Of a stretch of 64,000 nucleotides of DNA, positions 22,921 through 31,832 are shown piece after piece (position 1 is the first letter of the stretch; each line of letters starts with the position of its first letter). Source of the stretch: Gonapodya prolifera JEL478 (Eukaryota; Monoblepharomycota; Monoblepharidomycetes; Monoblepharidales; Gonapodyaceae); the NCBI GenBank assembly GCA_001574975.1, contig KQ965771.1, positions 186,001 to 250,000 on the forward strand, in the 5' to 3' direction. The position numbers and the translations under genes are program-made. A model generated the notes under the pieces. That model had not been told where the DNA came from, searched no databases, and saw only the letters and a list, made by a program, of their open reading frames with translations.

Positions 22921-23814
22921 GATCCGCATTAATCCATCTACGCTTCCGTGGTTCGATGCACCGGTGCTCCAGCTCCCGATGTTGGTTGTACCAGTTGTCC
23001 GTTCTCAGATGTTCCAACGAATCGAAGACCTTCCCTCGACCAGGAAGAGCTCCAGCACTTCAACGTTCCTCGTAGACTATCATTCTTAAATCTATTAATC
23101 TCGTTTGCACCTCCCGCGCCGCCCTTCTCGGTGCTTTCACCCCAAAGTTCAGCCGCCTTGCGACCCAAAAGCTCGCCTTCAACGCACCACTTTCCAAAAA
23201 GCCCACACTGTCTTCCATTATATTCCACTCGCTCGATACACGTCTTCCGCTGATGGTGCTTGCAGCACAACAAGGCAAGGAGTCGTTTTTGTGTGGGTTT
23301 CCGAAGTGTGGAAGCGACGTCGAGAGAGCGAACAATCACACTCGCCAAGGGATCGATCTGGATGCCCGCACGTGAGCATTGGTGCGATTGTTTGGTGTAC
23401 CGAGGGAGGTAAAGTAAGCCTTGAACTTTCGTAACACCCGAGATATGCAGCAAAGAGTCGCGAAGTTTGGAGAACGTATTTGTTGAGGTGGACGCCAGCG
23501 ATGCAGAGGAAGAAATGAAATGAAGAAAATTAGTTTTGGTAGCGTGTCCAGTGCAGGCCACGAGTGGGGAGCGAGGCGAGTGCAAGAGGCGGATATGGTG
23601 GTTCTGCCGATCGTCCGCAGCACTCGATTCTGCAATGAATGGGAGATTGATTGCGCAGATTGCAGTCTCTAGCAGACACTCCGTTGCAGTGTGGCTCCCC
23701 TGCTTCTGTGCGCGAAGGCAGAGGTGCCGTTGGTCCACACGGGGTGTTGAAATGGAATCGATGCAAGCACTTTCGAGACGGTGGCGGGAGGGAAGAGCAA
23801 AGGGACTGGCGCAC
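22921..23814. other. Region downstream of the kinase gene, uncertain
   Basis: A 306-codon minus-strand open frame (23858-22938) crosses this region, overlapping the end of the kinase-Sel1 gene. Its composition is Ser/Cys/His-rich without motifs, and long frames exist on the other strand too. I do not call a gene here. Confidence 0.3.
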
Positions 23815-26800
23815 TCAACTTGAACCACTGGAACTTTTGAGAGGCCGCACGAGATCACACCCTTGCATCACTTTGAGTTCTTTGCAATGTACTTTGGCGC
23901 TTGCATCACGCATTTCAAACGTTCCCCGCAAGACCAGACTAATCAACGTTACTCGCACCCTCCCATCAACTACACTTGTTCTCGACCATCCATCCTGAGC
24001 CGCGCCATCTCCGAACGTATCGTCGTCTCCTCTACACGCGCACCCCGCCTCCAAGTTACTGTTCGCAAAACAAATACCAAGGTTGCATTGTGCATTTGCA
24101 TGGCCCTGGTCTGCAGCTGCTCGCAACCACTTTATTGCTTCCTGAAAGTTCTCCTGCACACCCAACCCTTTGAGGTAGCACACACCAAGATAGTCCTTTG
24201 CATCAGCATTGCCTTGGTCACCACCCTTCTTGAACCACTTTACTGCCTCTTTGTAGTCCATTTCAACTCCTTCTCCGTTATAATAACACTGACCGAGTTT
24301 GTACTGGGCATCCACATTGCCCTGTTCTGCAGCCAACTGGAACCACTTTACTGCCTCTTCAACATTCTTTTCCACACCTAACGCATTCTTGTAGCAGTCA
24401 CCAAGCATCCTCTGACTTGTTGCGTAGCCCTGGTTTGCCGACATCACGAACCATGTCACAGCCTCCTTGATGTCCTTCTCCACACCCCATCCATTAAAGT
24501 AACATGATCCAAGATTGTGCTGTGCTTGGTCATTGCCCCGCTCAGCAGCTTTGCGGTACCATAAAACTGCCTGTGCAAGATCCTTCTCCACTGCTCGCCC
24601 ATGTTCGTAGCACTGCGCAATTCCAATCTCCCCTCTAGCGTTGCCCTTACTGGCGGCAGTTTGAAACAGCTTAAAAGACTCTGCTTCATTTTTCCTTGTC
24701 CCAACACCATCTCGGTAGCACAGTGCAAGACTGACATATGCATTGGCATATCCCTGTTCGGCAGCCATTTTGTAATACTTGTAAGCTTCATTCTCATCCT
24801 TCTGAACGCCCTCTCCCTTTTCATACTTCCAACCAAGACTGCTCTGTGCTTCTGCATCTCCTTGTGCTGCAGCCAACTTGTACCATTTCGCTGACTCCTC
24901 ATAATTGACCTTCACCACACCTAAACCATTTGTGTAGATTGCACCAAGTCGGGACTGCGATTTCACATCACCCTGAACTGCAGCCATCACAAACCATCGC
25001 ACTGCCTCATGACAATCCATACCCACACCCTCTCCATTCTGGTACGAGAATCCAAGATTTTGCTGTGCATCTGCATTGCCTTGAGCTGCGGCTTTCTTCC
25101 ACCACAAGACTCCCACTTGTTCATCCTTGTCCACACCCCACCCATGAAAGTACAGTTCACCCAAACGAGACTGGGCAAGGGGGAACGACAGATCTGCAGC
25201 TTTACGGAGCCACTCCAAACTTTCGCTGATAGTCGACATCTTTTTGCCGAGCAATACTCCTAATCGCAATTGTGAGACAGGATGGTCTCGCGCTGCTGCC
25301 TTGCGGTAGTACTCCTCAGCACGGAAACTTGAAAGGAAGCATCCGCCAATACCATGTGCATGGAAGTCTCCAAGCGCGCACAGAGAATTCGTATGATTGT
25401 GCGATTGAGCCAATCGCCTGTACCACTTTGCAGCCAAGTTTGGATCGCGATAGTAGAGCCCGACCCCGACTTTGCACCATTCCGCAAACTGAAATTGTGC
25501 GTCCACGTGGCCAAGCTCTGCAGCCACCTTGTAGAGTTTAATGGCCTCACTGAGACTACCAATTTCGCGCAATTGATGCGCTTTCGCAAACACAATTTCA
25601 GAATCAGACGTCGAGAGAGTATCTTGATGGTTCAGGGTATTGTTGTTTGATGGTACCGGGCGCATTGTCAACAGTTCAGGTCTGATTAATCACGTGCAAT
25701 TGGTTAAACGCCAGTTTGCATGCGCCCAACTGACATGCCGTACCTGATTTCCTCGAGCTCTGCGACAATTTCCTTGAATGCCAGGCGATCTGAAGGCACC
25801 TGCGACCAGCACTTCCTCATCAAGTCGGCAACTGTCAAGGGCATGTCTTGAGGGACACATGGTCTCTTTCCCTTCATGACTTCAGATAGGTCGTCATGAT
25901 CACGGAATGGGGCTTCTAGAGTCCAAAGCTGGTATTCCATAGTGAATGAAGTTGTAGGGCTTTTTAAAAGTAACGCAATAACGACGATGCACCTACATTG
26001 AACATCATGATTCCGAAAGCGTACACATCTCCCGCAAAAGTGACCGTGCTCGTGGCGCCTTCCATTCCTAGAGCGTGACCAAGTCTCTCTGGAGGAAGAT
26101 ACATGAGCGTTCCGGGGAGCACAACGTTTTCATCTCCAGTCGTAAACTTTGCAAACTTTGCAAACCCGAAGTCTGTGATGAGTGCGAATCCATCACTGGT
26201 GACAAGCACGTTGCCAGGTTTGAGGTCGGTGTGTATGACGCGAGCAATGTCGTGGAGGTACACCATTCCTCTAGCGATATCATACAGCTATTGGAAATGA
26301 AGGAAAGCGAAATATATGATGACTGAATGGTGGTGCAGTTGGCCTCCAAATGGCATCGGCAATCTCACCAAGCACAAGACCTTGTCATGAAACCCTTCCG
26401 TGCCCTTGATCGACTCAAGGTGCGTTTTGATGTTTCCATTTTCCATGATCGGAGAAATGAAGAATGGTTGTCTATTCACGTCGGTTCCAACTCCAAAGAG
26501 GGAAAGAACGAAGGGTGAAGTCATTGAGTACCAAACGTAAGACTCTCTGTCGAAGTCCTATGCAATTGAAATGCAAGGGTTGTGATGAAAGTGCAGCGCG
26601 AGATCCATTCGAGGTTGTTCTAGTTCTAGTAGCCCACCTTTCTCGAATAACCGTGGTCTTGTTCCTGGTCCATTGTCGGCAAGAAAGTGAAGGAGGCTTG
26701 CTCCGCTGATGGCGCTGTAATCTGCTGTGCTCTCTCCGGAACGCCCACATAATTCCTCGCTTCTGCTGGTAGAGGAGGCTCGGCCAAGTTTGCATACTGC

Positions 26801-27165
26801 TCTCCGCTCCGAGAAACTTCAGCGGCCGCTGCGATTTCGGGAGTCCCAGCGGCATCCGATAATATCGGTGGCTGATTTCCGAGCCGGGATCGCGGCAAGA
26901 TGATGCGCTTGAGGGCCACGTTGATTCCCTTCCAACTCCCAACATAAACGGATCCGTATCCACCACTTCCGAGCTTCTTTGTGGTCCATCGCACGTCTTT
27001 GCTGTCCACCTCCCAGAATTCCGGAATGCGGGTCGTCTGAGCTCTGCCAGAAGCAGTGGCAGCAGTCGGTTGTTTCTCCAAGACGGCAAGCAGCTGCGTA
27101 AGGAGGCCATCTGCGTTCCTGGCCGCGGTCGCGTCGCTGGGGTGCGCGGTGGAATTCGCGGACAT
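23815..27165 (-). CDS. TKL-type protein kinase fused to Sel1 repeats
   Basis: Five exons (27165-26638, 26557-26369, 26287-25997, 25928-25744, 25681-23815) total 3,060 nt and give 1,019 residues. Kinase part: LGSGGYGSVYVG (Gly loop), NVALK (ATP lysine), FDRESYVW (helix C Glu), PFVLSLFGVG, VIHTDLKPGNVL (catalytic loop), TDFGFAKFAK (DFG), GTLMYLPPE (activation segment end), FNLWTLEAPF, CWSQVPSDRLAF. The last exon holds about 13-14 Sel1 units (for example LGQCYYNGEGVEMDYKEAVK), a helical scaffold for protein-protein contacts. The intron 25743-25682 contains the stop that would otherwise end the kinase; its removal fuses the two parts in phase 2. TKL kinases linked to Sel1 repeats are known to be expanded in some basal fungi. 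Probably a cytosolic signalling kinase; substrates unknown. An extra stretch of roughly 75 residues lies between the ATP lysine and helix C. Confidence 0.84.
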
Positions 27166-29344: not shown

Positions 29345-30165
29345 TTTCAGAGTTTGGAACGGTGTCACAGAGGTTGGAGTCGAAGAAAGCACAGGCAGGA
29401 TGCCGGGTCAGAGCATTCGTGAGTCTCCTCAAGACCTTCCTCCTTCACAACAAAGCTCCGGGGCATCTGCTTTCCACATCCGACTTGGGACCCCGACGTG
29501 CATCAGCATATCTCACTGGAGCAGAGGAAAAGAGTGGGGTCAGTTTTTGTAACACCGACCAAGCGCAAACCATTTAGGACGTTCCAAAGACATCAGAACT
29601 CGGCGTCATCAGCATTGGCACTGCGAAACGGTACCACAATTCTAACCGACCAAAGATCCCTATGTGGGGCGACCAGGCGTACCCCAGCAGCGAACTGTCC
29701 GATCTCACCACACTGCACATTCGAATCGAGTCCTTCAGCGGCAACGAAGGATCGAACCCGCCCGCGGACATCCTGGCCGCCTTGGCATGGATCGAGAACC
29801 TCTCCAACCTCTCAGTCATCCACCTCACGTTCCTCGTGGTTGTGCAGAACTGGGCCTTCACGTCGGAGCAGAAGTACATCCAAATGACGGAGAAGAGCGC
29901 ACTGCGCATGTCTGAGCTGTTGTTCAAGCCGCTGCGCGTAATGGGGCGCCGCCAACCTAGAACAGACATCGTACTGGGAGACGTTACATATCAGATTACC
30001 AATGTTTCGGGAACTCATCAGGGATACTCGACTAGGACACTTATTGATTCGGGTGCGGGCGGGGCAGGGAGTGCAGATATAACGCTGCGGTTTGGATTGA
30101 GGCAGACTGTGGTTCATTTGGGAGAGAAAGTGGGCCTGAACGTTCGGCGATGTGAGGAACTGTAG
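29345..30165 (+). pseudogene. F-box gene, family B, 5'-truncated copy
   Basis: This begins inside the family body (RVWNGVTEVGVEE, matching the VWSRVMYLEVE region of copy 1) with no F-box upstream. It changes frame at least twice before 29660. It is then open to the end: YPSSELSDLTTLHIRIES, WAFTSEQKYIQM, DIVLGDVTYQ, and the terminal VHLGEKVGLNVRRCEEL. The conserved C-terminus is intact. Immediately downstream is another family B copy in the same orientation. Confidence 0.65.
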
Positions 30166-30339: not shown

Positions 30340-31832
30340 CGCCCCCGGCGAACGATCGTTAGTTCGCCTGCCGGTGGTACTCAGGCCTCAGTCGTCCTCC
30401 CAGAGTGGTGTACCGTGTCCTTCCCCTTCTAACGAACCACATCCGCGAAGCAGCCCGAACTGCACTTCCCGGAAACTCCGTTGGCATCCTCTGCTCAATT
30501 TTTGTAGGACGCTCCATAACACTGCCGGCTCGCAAAACTAATCCGCCGCGGCTGAACGGTGTGGAAGCGCGTGTTCGCTTTCTTCCTCGGTTCGAGACTA
30601 TAACGCCAAATAATGGCAAAATGTTTTGGGTCGCTTGCGAAGGGGAAGTCGCTCTACGGGCGACAACTTCACGTGGCTCATGGAGTGTGTGGGACGAACG
30701 TTCGGGAGTTTGTCCGGAGAAAACTCGGAGATCTGGAACGATACCCAAAAAAAATTGAGCGACTGTTCATAGGAGGGCGACAATGTGAACGCTCCATTGT
30801 TAAGATGGAGTTTGAGGACTCGTTTCGAGGTTTCCTAGAGGATAACAATATGTGGTTGCCGCTGAGAATGTTTGCATCAAGCGAAAGCAGCAATAGCCTG
30901 AGGACGGTGGAGCTTCGCCACTTGTCTTCATGGTTGCCGCGGGAAGGGGACATTCCAGCTGAACTTGGGGTTTGGAATGGTGTTACGAACATTTCGATGG
31001 AGCTCATTGCTGGAGCGACAATGTCAATTCGGGAAGGGTCGACTGCATTGGTAAACTTGTTGAAGTCATTCCCCTTTGCAACAAATCGTCATGGTCTCTG
31101 CCTTTTGTATCCGGCTTGGACACCAACCTACAACATCACATCTCTATTGAGCAGAGGTCAAGAGTACTATCAGTTATAGTGTCGCCAACTCAGGCAAGAA
31201 GCACACTGCAAACTTCTTTGGCAAAGTGGCCACACTCTCTCCTTTATGTGCTCCGCGCTTTCCCAAAGGGAGTAATCACCCTCGGCTCTTTTTACAAATA
31301 CTGGGACTCACGACGACGAAGGTTCCCTCTACGGAGCGATCATGCATATCCCGGTAGCGTTCTACCGGATCTCACCACACTCCACCTAGAAATTGAATCC
31401 TTGAGTAGTAACCAAGGTCAGAAACTGCCCGAGGACACATTGGCTGTTTTTGCATGGATCCAGGAAAATCTTCCCAATCTTGCGACAGTCCACCTCACGT
31501 TCCACCCGCATGTAGAAAAGCGGAGATTCGCATCAGAGCAACGGTACATTCAAATAGCAGAGACACTGGCACTTGAAATGTGTAAGTTGTTGTTCAACGC
31601 AGTAAGGTCAATCGAGCAGGAGGCTGGACAGGCAACCATTGTACTGGGAGATGTGACTTACGAAATCAACGATGTCAATGGAGAGTGGGGAACTGGTCCG
31701 AGTGTTGTTGTGGGGTCGAGTGGAAATCGATCAGGTGCAGGGCAAGTGCCAAAGGCGCGCCTCGTGCTAAGGCAGGCTGTGGTGCAGCTCGCCGAAAAAG
31801 TGGGTTTGAACATTGGGCAATGCGCCAAGTAG
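30340..31832 (+). pseudogene. F-box gene, family B copy 3 (frame broken)
   Basis: The N-terminal F-box is partly deleted: the sequence goes from RRTIVSSPAGGTQ straight to VVYRVLPLLTNHIREAAR. One frame change occurs near 30660 (after CEGEVALRA) and another near 31110 (between HGLCLL and LDTNLQHHISIEQRSR). The remainder is open: LPDLTTLHLEIESLSSNQ, RRFASEQRYIQIAE, TIVLGDVTYEIN, LRQAVVQLAEKVGLNIGQC. The long open segments suggest fairly recent decay. Confidence 0.66.

Follow-up and report, generated by a model that had tools for sequence, protein, structure and literature searches.

Read without splicing, the minus strand of one part of a 64,000-nucleotide stretch of Gonapodya prolifera JEL478 contig KQ965771.1 (the window, meaning that whole stretch) holds a kinase frame that stops at a TAA (25706-25704), and the frame for a Sel1 protein has its first ATG at 25665, 38 nt beyond the stop. 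The question that the locus raises is whether these are two genes or the two parts of one, joined by removal of a short intron. We rebuilt five exons on the minus strand (Table 1), which total 3,060 nt, or 1,019 codons and a stop, with phase 2 kept across the junction; the sequence-only reading of this DNA had arrived at the same total and phase, and both were reproduced exactly. The intron at issue, intron 4, runs from GTACGG to AATCAG and contains the in-frame TAA, which is removed on splicing; if the intron is left in place, the kinase frame continues as RYGMSVGRMQTGV before it meets the TAA. That the intron hides the stop had likewise been proposed, and it was borne out here, together with a phase-2 intron at the same place in relatives, but the gap of 33 bp given at the time between the stop and the Sel1 start proved to be 38 nt. 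Intron 4 has the features of a U2-type intron, with GT-AG ends and a size and position that match those of the relatives' introns (the introns at residue 398 in 21 relatives have a median length of 62 nt and a range of 48-189). No AATAAA was found in 25760-25560. We conclude that the locus is very probably a single five-exon gene, in which the predicted splicing of 25743-25682 would join a TKL-type non-RD kinase to a Sel1 solenoid; we infer splicing in the cell from gene structure and homology.

Table 1. Predicted features of the kinase–Sel1 gene (positions in the window).
Feature	Position	Strand	Details
Exon 1	26638..27165	-	528 nt; N-terminus, Gly-rich loop LGSGGYGSV from residue 65, VALK lysine; also holds most of the beta3–alphaC insert
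Intron 1	26558..26637	-	80 nt, phase 0; residue 176
Exon 2	26369..26557	-	189 nt; alphaC glutamate, end of N-lobe
Intron 2	26288..26368	-	81 nt, phase 0; residue 239; length divisible by 3, read-through hits a stop at the intron's end
Exon 3	25997..26287	-	291 nt; catalytic loop HTDLKPGN (non-RD), DFG, PPE
Intron 3	25929..25996	-	68 nt, phase 0; residue 336
Exon 4	25744..25928	-	185 nt; end of kinase C-lobe, CWSQVPSDRLAF...EEIR
Intron 4	25682..25743	-	62 nt, phase 2; carries in-frame TAA 25706-25704
Exon 5	23815..25681	-	1,867 nt
Linker PELLTMRPVPSNNN...	25612..25680	-	conserved after the junction; low confidence in structure model
Sel1 solenoid	24061..25611	-	29 helices in the exon 5 model; Pfam Sel1
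C-terminal tail	23815..24060	-	about 80 codons and stop; single copy, pLDDT <50

Forty relatives, all from the same genome and labelled L001-L040, were fetched, and residues 1-600 of the window protein were aligned to each of them with a purpose-written spliced aligner in which GT–AG introns were optional. With the window protein as the query, which makes the alignments lean towards the window gene structure, the junction (residue 400) was crossed in 32 of the 40 relatives, and 23 of these 32 alignments place a phase-2 intron at residue 397-399. For 22 of the 23, leaving that intron in would cause a frameshift or run into a stop. The junction intron is long in L020 and L033 (172 and 189 nt) and its donor is poor in L024, the other 20 being free of such flaws; stops elsewhere occur in three of the 23 (L005, L022 and L031). 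Six of the nine relatives that lack an intron in that place and phase (L002, L009, L010, L017, L019, L021, L034, L035 and L040) carry stops. Altogether, the aligned coding part has stops in 10 of the 40 relatives, among them the closest one, L002, which has two, arguing that parts of the family are decaying. The junction intron is also present in the outer members L036-L039, and the fusion would thus be older than the split of the family groups. We reject chance splice sites, since a phase-2 intron recurs at the corresponding position in 23 of the 32 relatives.

The upstream introns are also common to relatives, being found at residue 176 in 20, at residue 239 in 31 and at residue 336 in 27 of the 40. 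When introns of up to 120 nt were compared, with the phase-0 intron of L035 included in the intron 4 set (n=22), retention broke the frame at introns 1-3 in 20 of 22, 31 of 31 and 23 of 27 cases, respectively, and at intron 4 in 21 of 22; read-through stops were present in 17 of 22, 18 of 31 and 14 of 27 cases at introns 1-3 and in 19 of 22 at intron 4. A special stop-hiding role for intron 4 is therefore unsupported, the other three introns behaving much alike. No 8-base word is common to intron 4 of the window and any of the 23 relatives' introns; the intron thus keeps its place but not its sequence, which is what one expects of introns.

The protein sequence on the far side of the junction is also held in common. 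In ten aligned genes, the linker PELxxLRPVPSN stands directly after the junction intron and is followed by the first Sel1 helices, and its positions P1, R7 and N12 are invariant across the ten. Differences from nine relatives at codon positions 1, 2 and 3 were 0.41, 0.31 and 0.62 in exon 4, 0.48, 0.37 and 0.69 in the linker, and 0.36, 0.25 and 0.61 in the first Sel1 part, a pattern of divergence that looks coding on both sides of the junction.

Both domains are abundant in the genome searched (47.56 Mb, 207 contigs), in which there are at least 150 Sel1 repeats (150 of 703 candidates scored) and at least 147 matches to kinases of the window type (98 of 353 candidates scored). Clusters were formed from hand-listed matches (150 from the Sel1 search, 30 from a further search, those listed for each locus of the kinase search, and 28 of the 144 in one more search), which gave 99 kinase and 80 Sel1 clusters. 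Among these, 49 of the 99 listed kinase clusters have a Sel1 cluster at most 3 kb downstream on the same strand, a share that is biased because some of the 28 were picked for their nearness to Sel1. An upstream Sel1 cluster was found for none of the remaining listed kinase clusters, the order being kinase and then Sel1 in all 49 pairs, and 31 Sel1 clusters are without a listed kinase. A maximum-likelihood tree was made from 34 sequences, all of this genome (the window gene and 33 others; L016, L020, L025, L026, L027, L029 and L030 were left out for short coverage). It groups the window gene with L002 (100/98) and L003 with L021 (100/100), and outer members with HAD or HLD catalytic loops fall outside a group of 25 (97/99); all LRR-bearing members lie within a weakly supported set of 21 (84/77), which also has LRR-free members. 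Judged from these matches, the window gene belongs to a TKL–Sel1 family that has undergone expansion. Intron 4 is ordinary when taken alone; of greater interest is the family to which its gene belongs. The genome also has a match to a radial-spoke protein family (best E=8.7e-15) and two partial matches to the fungal chitin-synthase N-terminal domain (E=1.2e-4, over the cut-off, and 5.1e-4), which would suit a flagellated fungus.

On the spliced protein, PK_Tyr_Ser-Thr (PF07714) matched residues 169–394 above the curated cut-off (E=3e-32), and the kinase relatives in the PDB are of the TK and TKL groups, with EGFR the best, followed by MLTK, the Src-Abl ancestor, B-Raf and TNNI3K. The motif CW(X)6RPXF is common to TK and TKL kinases, and GXR(L/M) is specific to TK (PMC3937382). 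The window protein has an equivalent of the former, CWSQVPSDRLAF, with Leu replacing Pro; the TK-specific motif is absent, the sequence there reading GKRP. A catalytic loop of the DLKxxN type marks Ser/Thr kinases, and that of the window protein, HTDLKPGN, is of this type. By these motifs, the kinase is assigned to the TKL type and would not be a true tyrosine kinase. The catalytic residues are kept, namely the Lys of VALK, the Glu of FDRES, the Asp of HTD, the Asn of DLKPGN and DFG, and the Gly loop is also present; from the Lys, Glu, Asp, Asn and DFG residues the protein is predicted to be an active kinase. The Arg of HRD is replaced by Thr, which places the kinase outside the RD class. Among the 36 of 40 relatives in which this position is readable, 26 have Thr, five Ala, five Leu and none Arg, arguing that the family is non-RD. 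Non-RD kinases are common among plant immune kinases. Between beta3 and alphaC there is an insert of about 90 residues (from the VALK lysine 86 to the alphaC start at 178; 26907-26558, minus strand), and at least 55 of the 75 columns 96–170 within it were aligned in 20 of the 40 relatives.

Pfam Sel1 (PF08238) matched the spliced protein in 10 stretches (E=1.3e-100), and the PDB relatives of this part include SEL1L and bacterial Sel1 proteins (9uav, 6ok3). An AlphaFold2 model of exon 5 alone, made from the single sequence, has a mean pLDDT of 75.9 and forms a regular alpha-solenoid with 29 helices over residues 24–540; the block values are mostly above 90 in residues ~190-500 of the model, and values fall below 50 at residues 1–24 (the linker), 72–76, 109–117 and 542–621. 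DNA similarity to the closest relative, L002, ends at ~24070, and the Sel1 register is lost there too. When a second copy of 23500–24110 was sought in the genome, this segment matched only itself. Past 24061 in the window, no further Sel1 repeat was found in the three frames read, no leucine-rich repeat (LRR) with the LRR profile, and no GATA end with a pattern that matched only L003. The sequence-only reading had predicted one kinase–Sel1 protein of 1,019 residues; the fusion stands, on the relatives' intron, the linker and the domain order, but the exact length is not secure, because the last ~80 codons are without support. Two other origins were considered for sequence just after the junction. 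A viral origin of the linker and first repeats was rejected, since 29 pattern matches in viral contigs gave no confirmed relative, as was a prokaryotic origin, for which one of 20 pattern matches in prokaryote genomes was a relative (L042), over residues 43-75 only, in the repeat part and not in the linker.

These results can be set against other readings of the locus. If it comprised two adjacent genes, the kinase would end at the TAA and a separate Sel1 protein would start at ATG 25665. The unspliced frames do read so, with the ATG shortly after the stop; however, the relatives have an intron at the same position and phase followed by the same linker, PELLT is a part of that conserved linker and lies upstream of ATG 25665, the 38 nt leave little room for a terminator and a promoter, and the kinase precedes Sel1 in all 49 pairs. 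Given the relatives' junction intron, the linker and the coding-type divergence, two genes are very unlikely indeed, and we reject this reading on the common intron and linker. Regulated retention of intron 4 would yield two products, a short kinase-only form that stops after RYGMSVGRMQTGV and a long kinase–Sel1 form. The short form would end just past the kinase fold, and the read-through stops are somewhat commoner at intron 4 than at introns 1-3, yet any short intron with a stop would act in this way and no control sequence is conserved, as the comparison of 8-base words indicates; we consider such regulation improbable.

It is also possible, although we doubt it, that the junction is right and the gene is nevertheless decaying, its 3' part having been cut short or replaced near 24061, so that it might be an emerging pseudogene. 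The similarity to L002 and the Sel1 register both end close to this point, the tail is single copy and modelled with low confidence, and two stops interrupt the aligned part of the sister gene, L002. Arguing against decay are 1,019 codons free of stops, the kept catalytic residues and the coding-type divergence. The reading that we retain is that of one five-exon gene for a kinase–Sel1 protein.

In 16 of the 40 relatives, sense-strand LRRs of the ribonuclease-inhibitor/NLR kind lie downstream of the kinase, nearly always after Sel1; the profile that detected them was built from 27 units typed from eight loci, and the matches are by construction in those eight and independent in the other eight. 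At least five LRRs are present in 12 of the 16 (L004, L005, L006, L007, L008, L011, L012, L014, L015, L022, L024 and L031). L009 and L023 have a single LRR each, and that of L023 directly follows a kinase fragment, no Sel1 being found between them. L029 has two LRRs on the opposite strand and a partial locus, L041, has ten. The profile detected none in the window and 23 other loci. A four-unit chain, partly consensus-like, matched Pfam LRR_6 at E=3.5e-24 and one L007 open reading frame matched it at 2.1e-5; one single L004 unit gave no Pfam match. A genome search with LRR_6 returned three places, none of them at the LRR-bearing kinase loci, which it misses because single exons score low.

The LRRs are arranged as unit exons. 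An exon of exactly 84 nt, whose acceptor precedes the Asn codon by two bases and whose donor resembles GTGAG, fits 21 of the 25 LRR units of L004 and L015, the remaining four being a unit of 81 nt, one of 87 nt, a broken last unit and a displaced unit. In L004 (3672-6096), closely similar LRR units recur every 167-178 nt, one repeat per exon. A query taken from L015, reaching from the end of Sel1 across four LRR units, was aligned with splicing to 12 loci. Each of the four borders carried a phase-1 intron in L008, L015 (where the donor is poor at the first border) and L031. L024 resembles these three but has a stop and an extra break. In the alignments of the other eight, introns were added or displaced, mainly at the first border, and the LRR–LRR borders were again mostly in phase 1. 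A search for the connector preceding the LRRs gave 10 places, one of them that of the query itself. For 12 equal-length units of the 16 found in L004, piN was 0.11, piS 0.19 and the value for introns 0.067; piN/piS is below 1 and the changes are concentrated at a few positions. Replacement differences that exceed those of introns but fall short of silent ones are suggestive only, and we do not claim selection.

Modules other than LRRs follow Sel1 in some relatives. At L003:2688-4511, a GATA zinc finger (PF00320, E=3.1e-7) forms the end of the Sel1 reading frame. L001:2114-5500 has an apparent TKL-Sel1-pseudokinase-Sel1 arrangement. Its first Sel1 exon runs into an apparent second kinase start; there follow a kinase-like part in which the catalytic motifs are missing (Pkinase at E=6.9e-5, which is under the cut-off, and PF07714 over the C-lobe at E=1.3e-8) and then a second Sel1 array. 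L002 and L016 have an apparent kinase C-lobe fragment after Sel1. At each locus, the kinase, Sel1 and LRR or GATA modules would be carried on one transcript. LRR exon arrays were also seen upstream of TKL–Sel1 loci and on the same strand as these, at G000:C17:468100-469245 (plus strand; kinase at 471460) and at G000:C37:92464-93019 (minus strand; kinase at 90036); either may be a separate gene. In the window itself, two neighbouring open frames on the plus strand (29578-30162 and 30963-31829) are 46% identical over 186 columns, and neither has a Pfam match at E<=0.01.

In the likely working model, partner proteins or ligands would bind to the Sel1 superhelix, and the superhelix would position or regulate the kinase, which would serve as the output, presumably in the cytosol. 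The family may have expanded as a set of receptors or adaptors for signalling inside the cell, their C-terminal modules being exchangeable (Sel1 alone, Sel1 with LRRs, or Sel1 with a GATA finger), and the unit-exon LRR arrays would allow in-frame gain or loss of repeats. We suggest, tentatively, that this might be an intracellular recognition system of a zoosporic fungus, NLR-like in its working but no NLR. Its output would be a non-RD TKL kinase, the Sel1 solenoid would act as a hinge or an adaptor, and the sensor ends would be exchangeable and often consist of LRR arrays of single, mostly 84-nt, phase-1 exons. If this reading is true, the conclusion in print that LRR recognition receptors are missing from fungi would need qualifying. 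A kinase–Sel1–LRR family with unit exons would be a testable candidate for the means by which an early-diverging fungus may recognise other organisms or its own kind. A gene model that omits the 62-nt intron would show the window gene as a kinase and, separately, an orphan Sel1 protein; correct joining reveals a large family of kinase–scaffold proteins in which the domain order is fixed and the gene structure common, linked to LRRs in close relatives.

Several known systems resemble this family in part. 'MLKL-like' proteins with Sel1 repeats are reported in PMC8778642 only from Glomeromycotina, and that source assigns their family to MLKL. They likewise combine a kinase-type domain with Sel1 repeats in early-diverging fungi. 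Unlike them, the present case comes from a genome with flagellar and fungal markers, and the window kinase keeps its catalytic residues and has ~60 residues before it. MLKL itself has an N-terminal four-helix bundle before a pseudokinase. We reject membership of the window protein in MLKL, as only those ~60 residues precede the Gly loop, with no Pfam match there, and the catalytic residues are kept. In Rhizophagus irregularis, PF07714 kinases and Sel1 genes are both expanded (PMC6123716); the same two domain families are inflated there, but the text consulted from that paper does not state that both occur in one protein. Sel1 in arbuscular mycorrhizal fungi is also treated in PMC7550596, a Batrachochytrium Sel1 gene family is listed as a bacterial gene transfer in PMC5005798, and kinase surveys describe TK and TKL motifs and an excess of TKL in Laccaria (PMC3937382, PMC2838846).

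With respect to LRRs, a survey of 101 eukaryotes reported no LRR receptors with a kinase in fungi but listed four genes of Batrachochytrium dendrobatidis that combine LRR and kinase domains and lack membrane regions (PMC2939053). The sections of that survey consulted mention neither Sel1 nor an arrangement of one repeat to an exon; the window gene has no LRR of its own. Fungal NOD-like receptors have NACHT or NB-ARC with WD, ANK or TPR repeats and no LRR, according to the part of PMC4986451 that describes them. They likewise place an output domain before long solenoid repeats and form variable families, whereas the window protein has a kinase and no NOD domain; its membership among them was rejected, as a Pfam scan of the whole protein detected no NACHT or NB-ARC at E<=0.001. 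SEL1L/Hrd3 and bacterial Sel1 proteins (such as 9uav and 6ok3) belong to the same repeat family but have no joined kinase, and their roles are in the ER or in bacteria. In the open-licence literature, as far as its accessible text goes, we found no description of TKL–Sel1–LRR proteins or of chytrid TKL–Sel1 proteins, which is weak evidence. The combination of kinase and Sel1 is thus already known; in our view, what is new is the present version, in which introns are common to the family members, the kinases are non-RD, and some relatives end in LRRs or a GATA finger.
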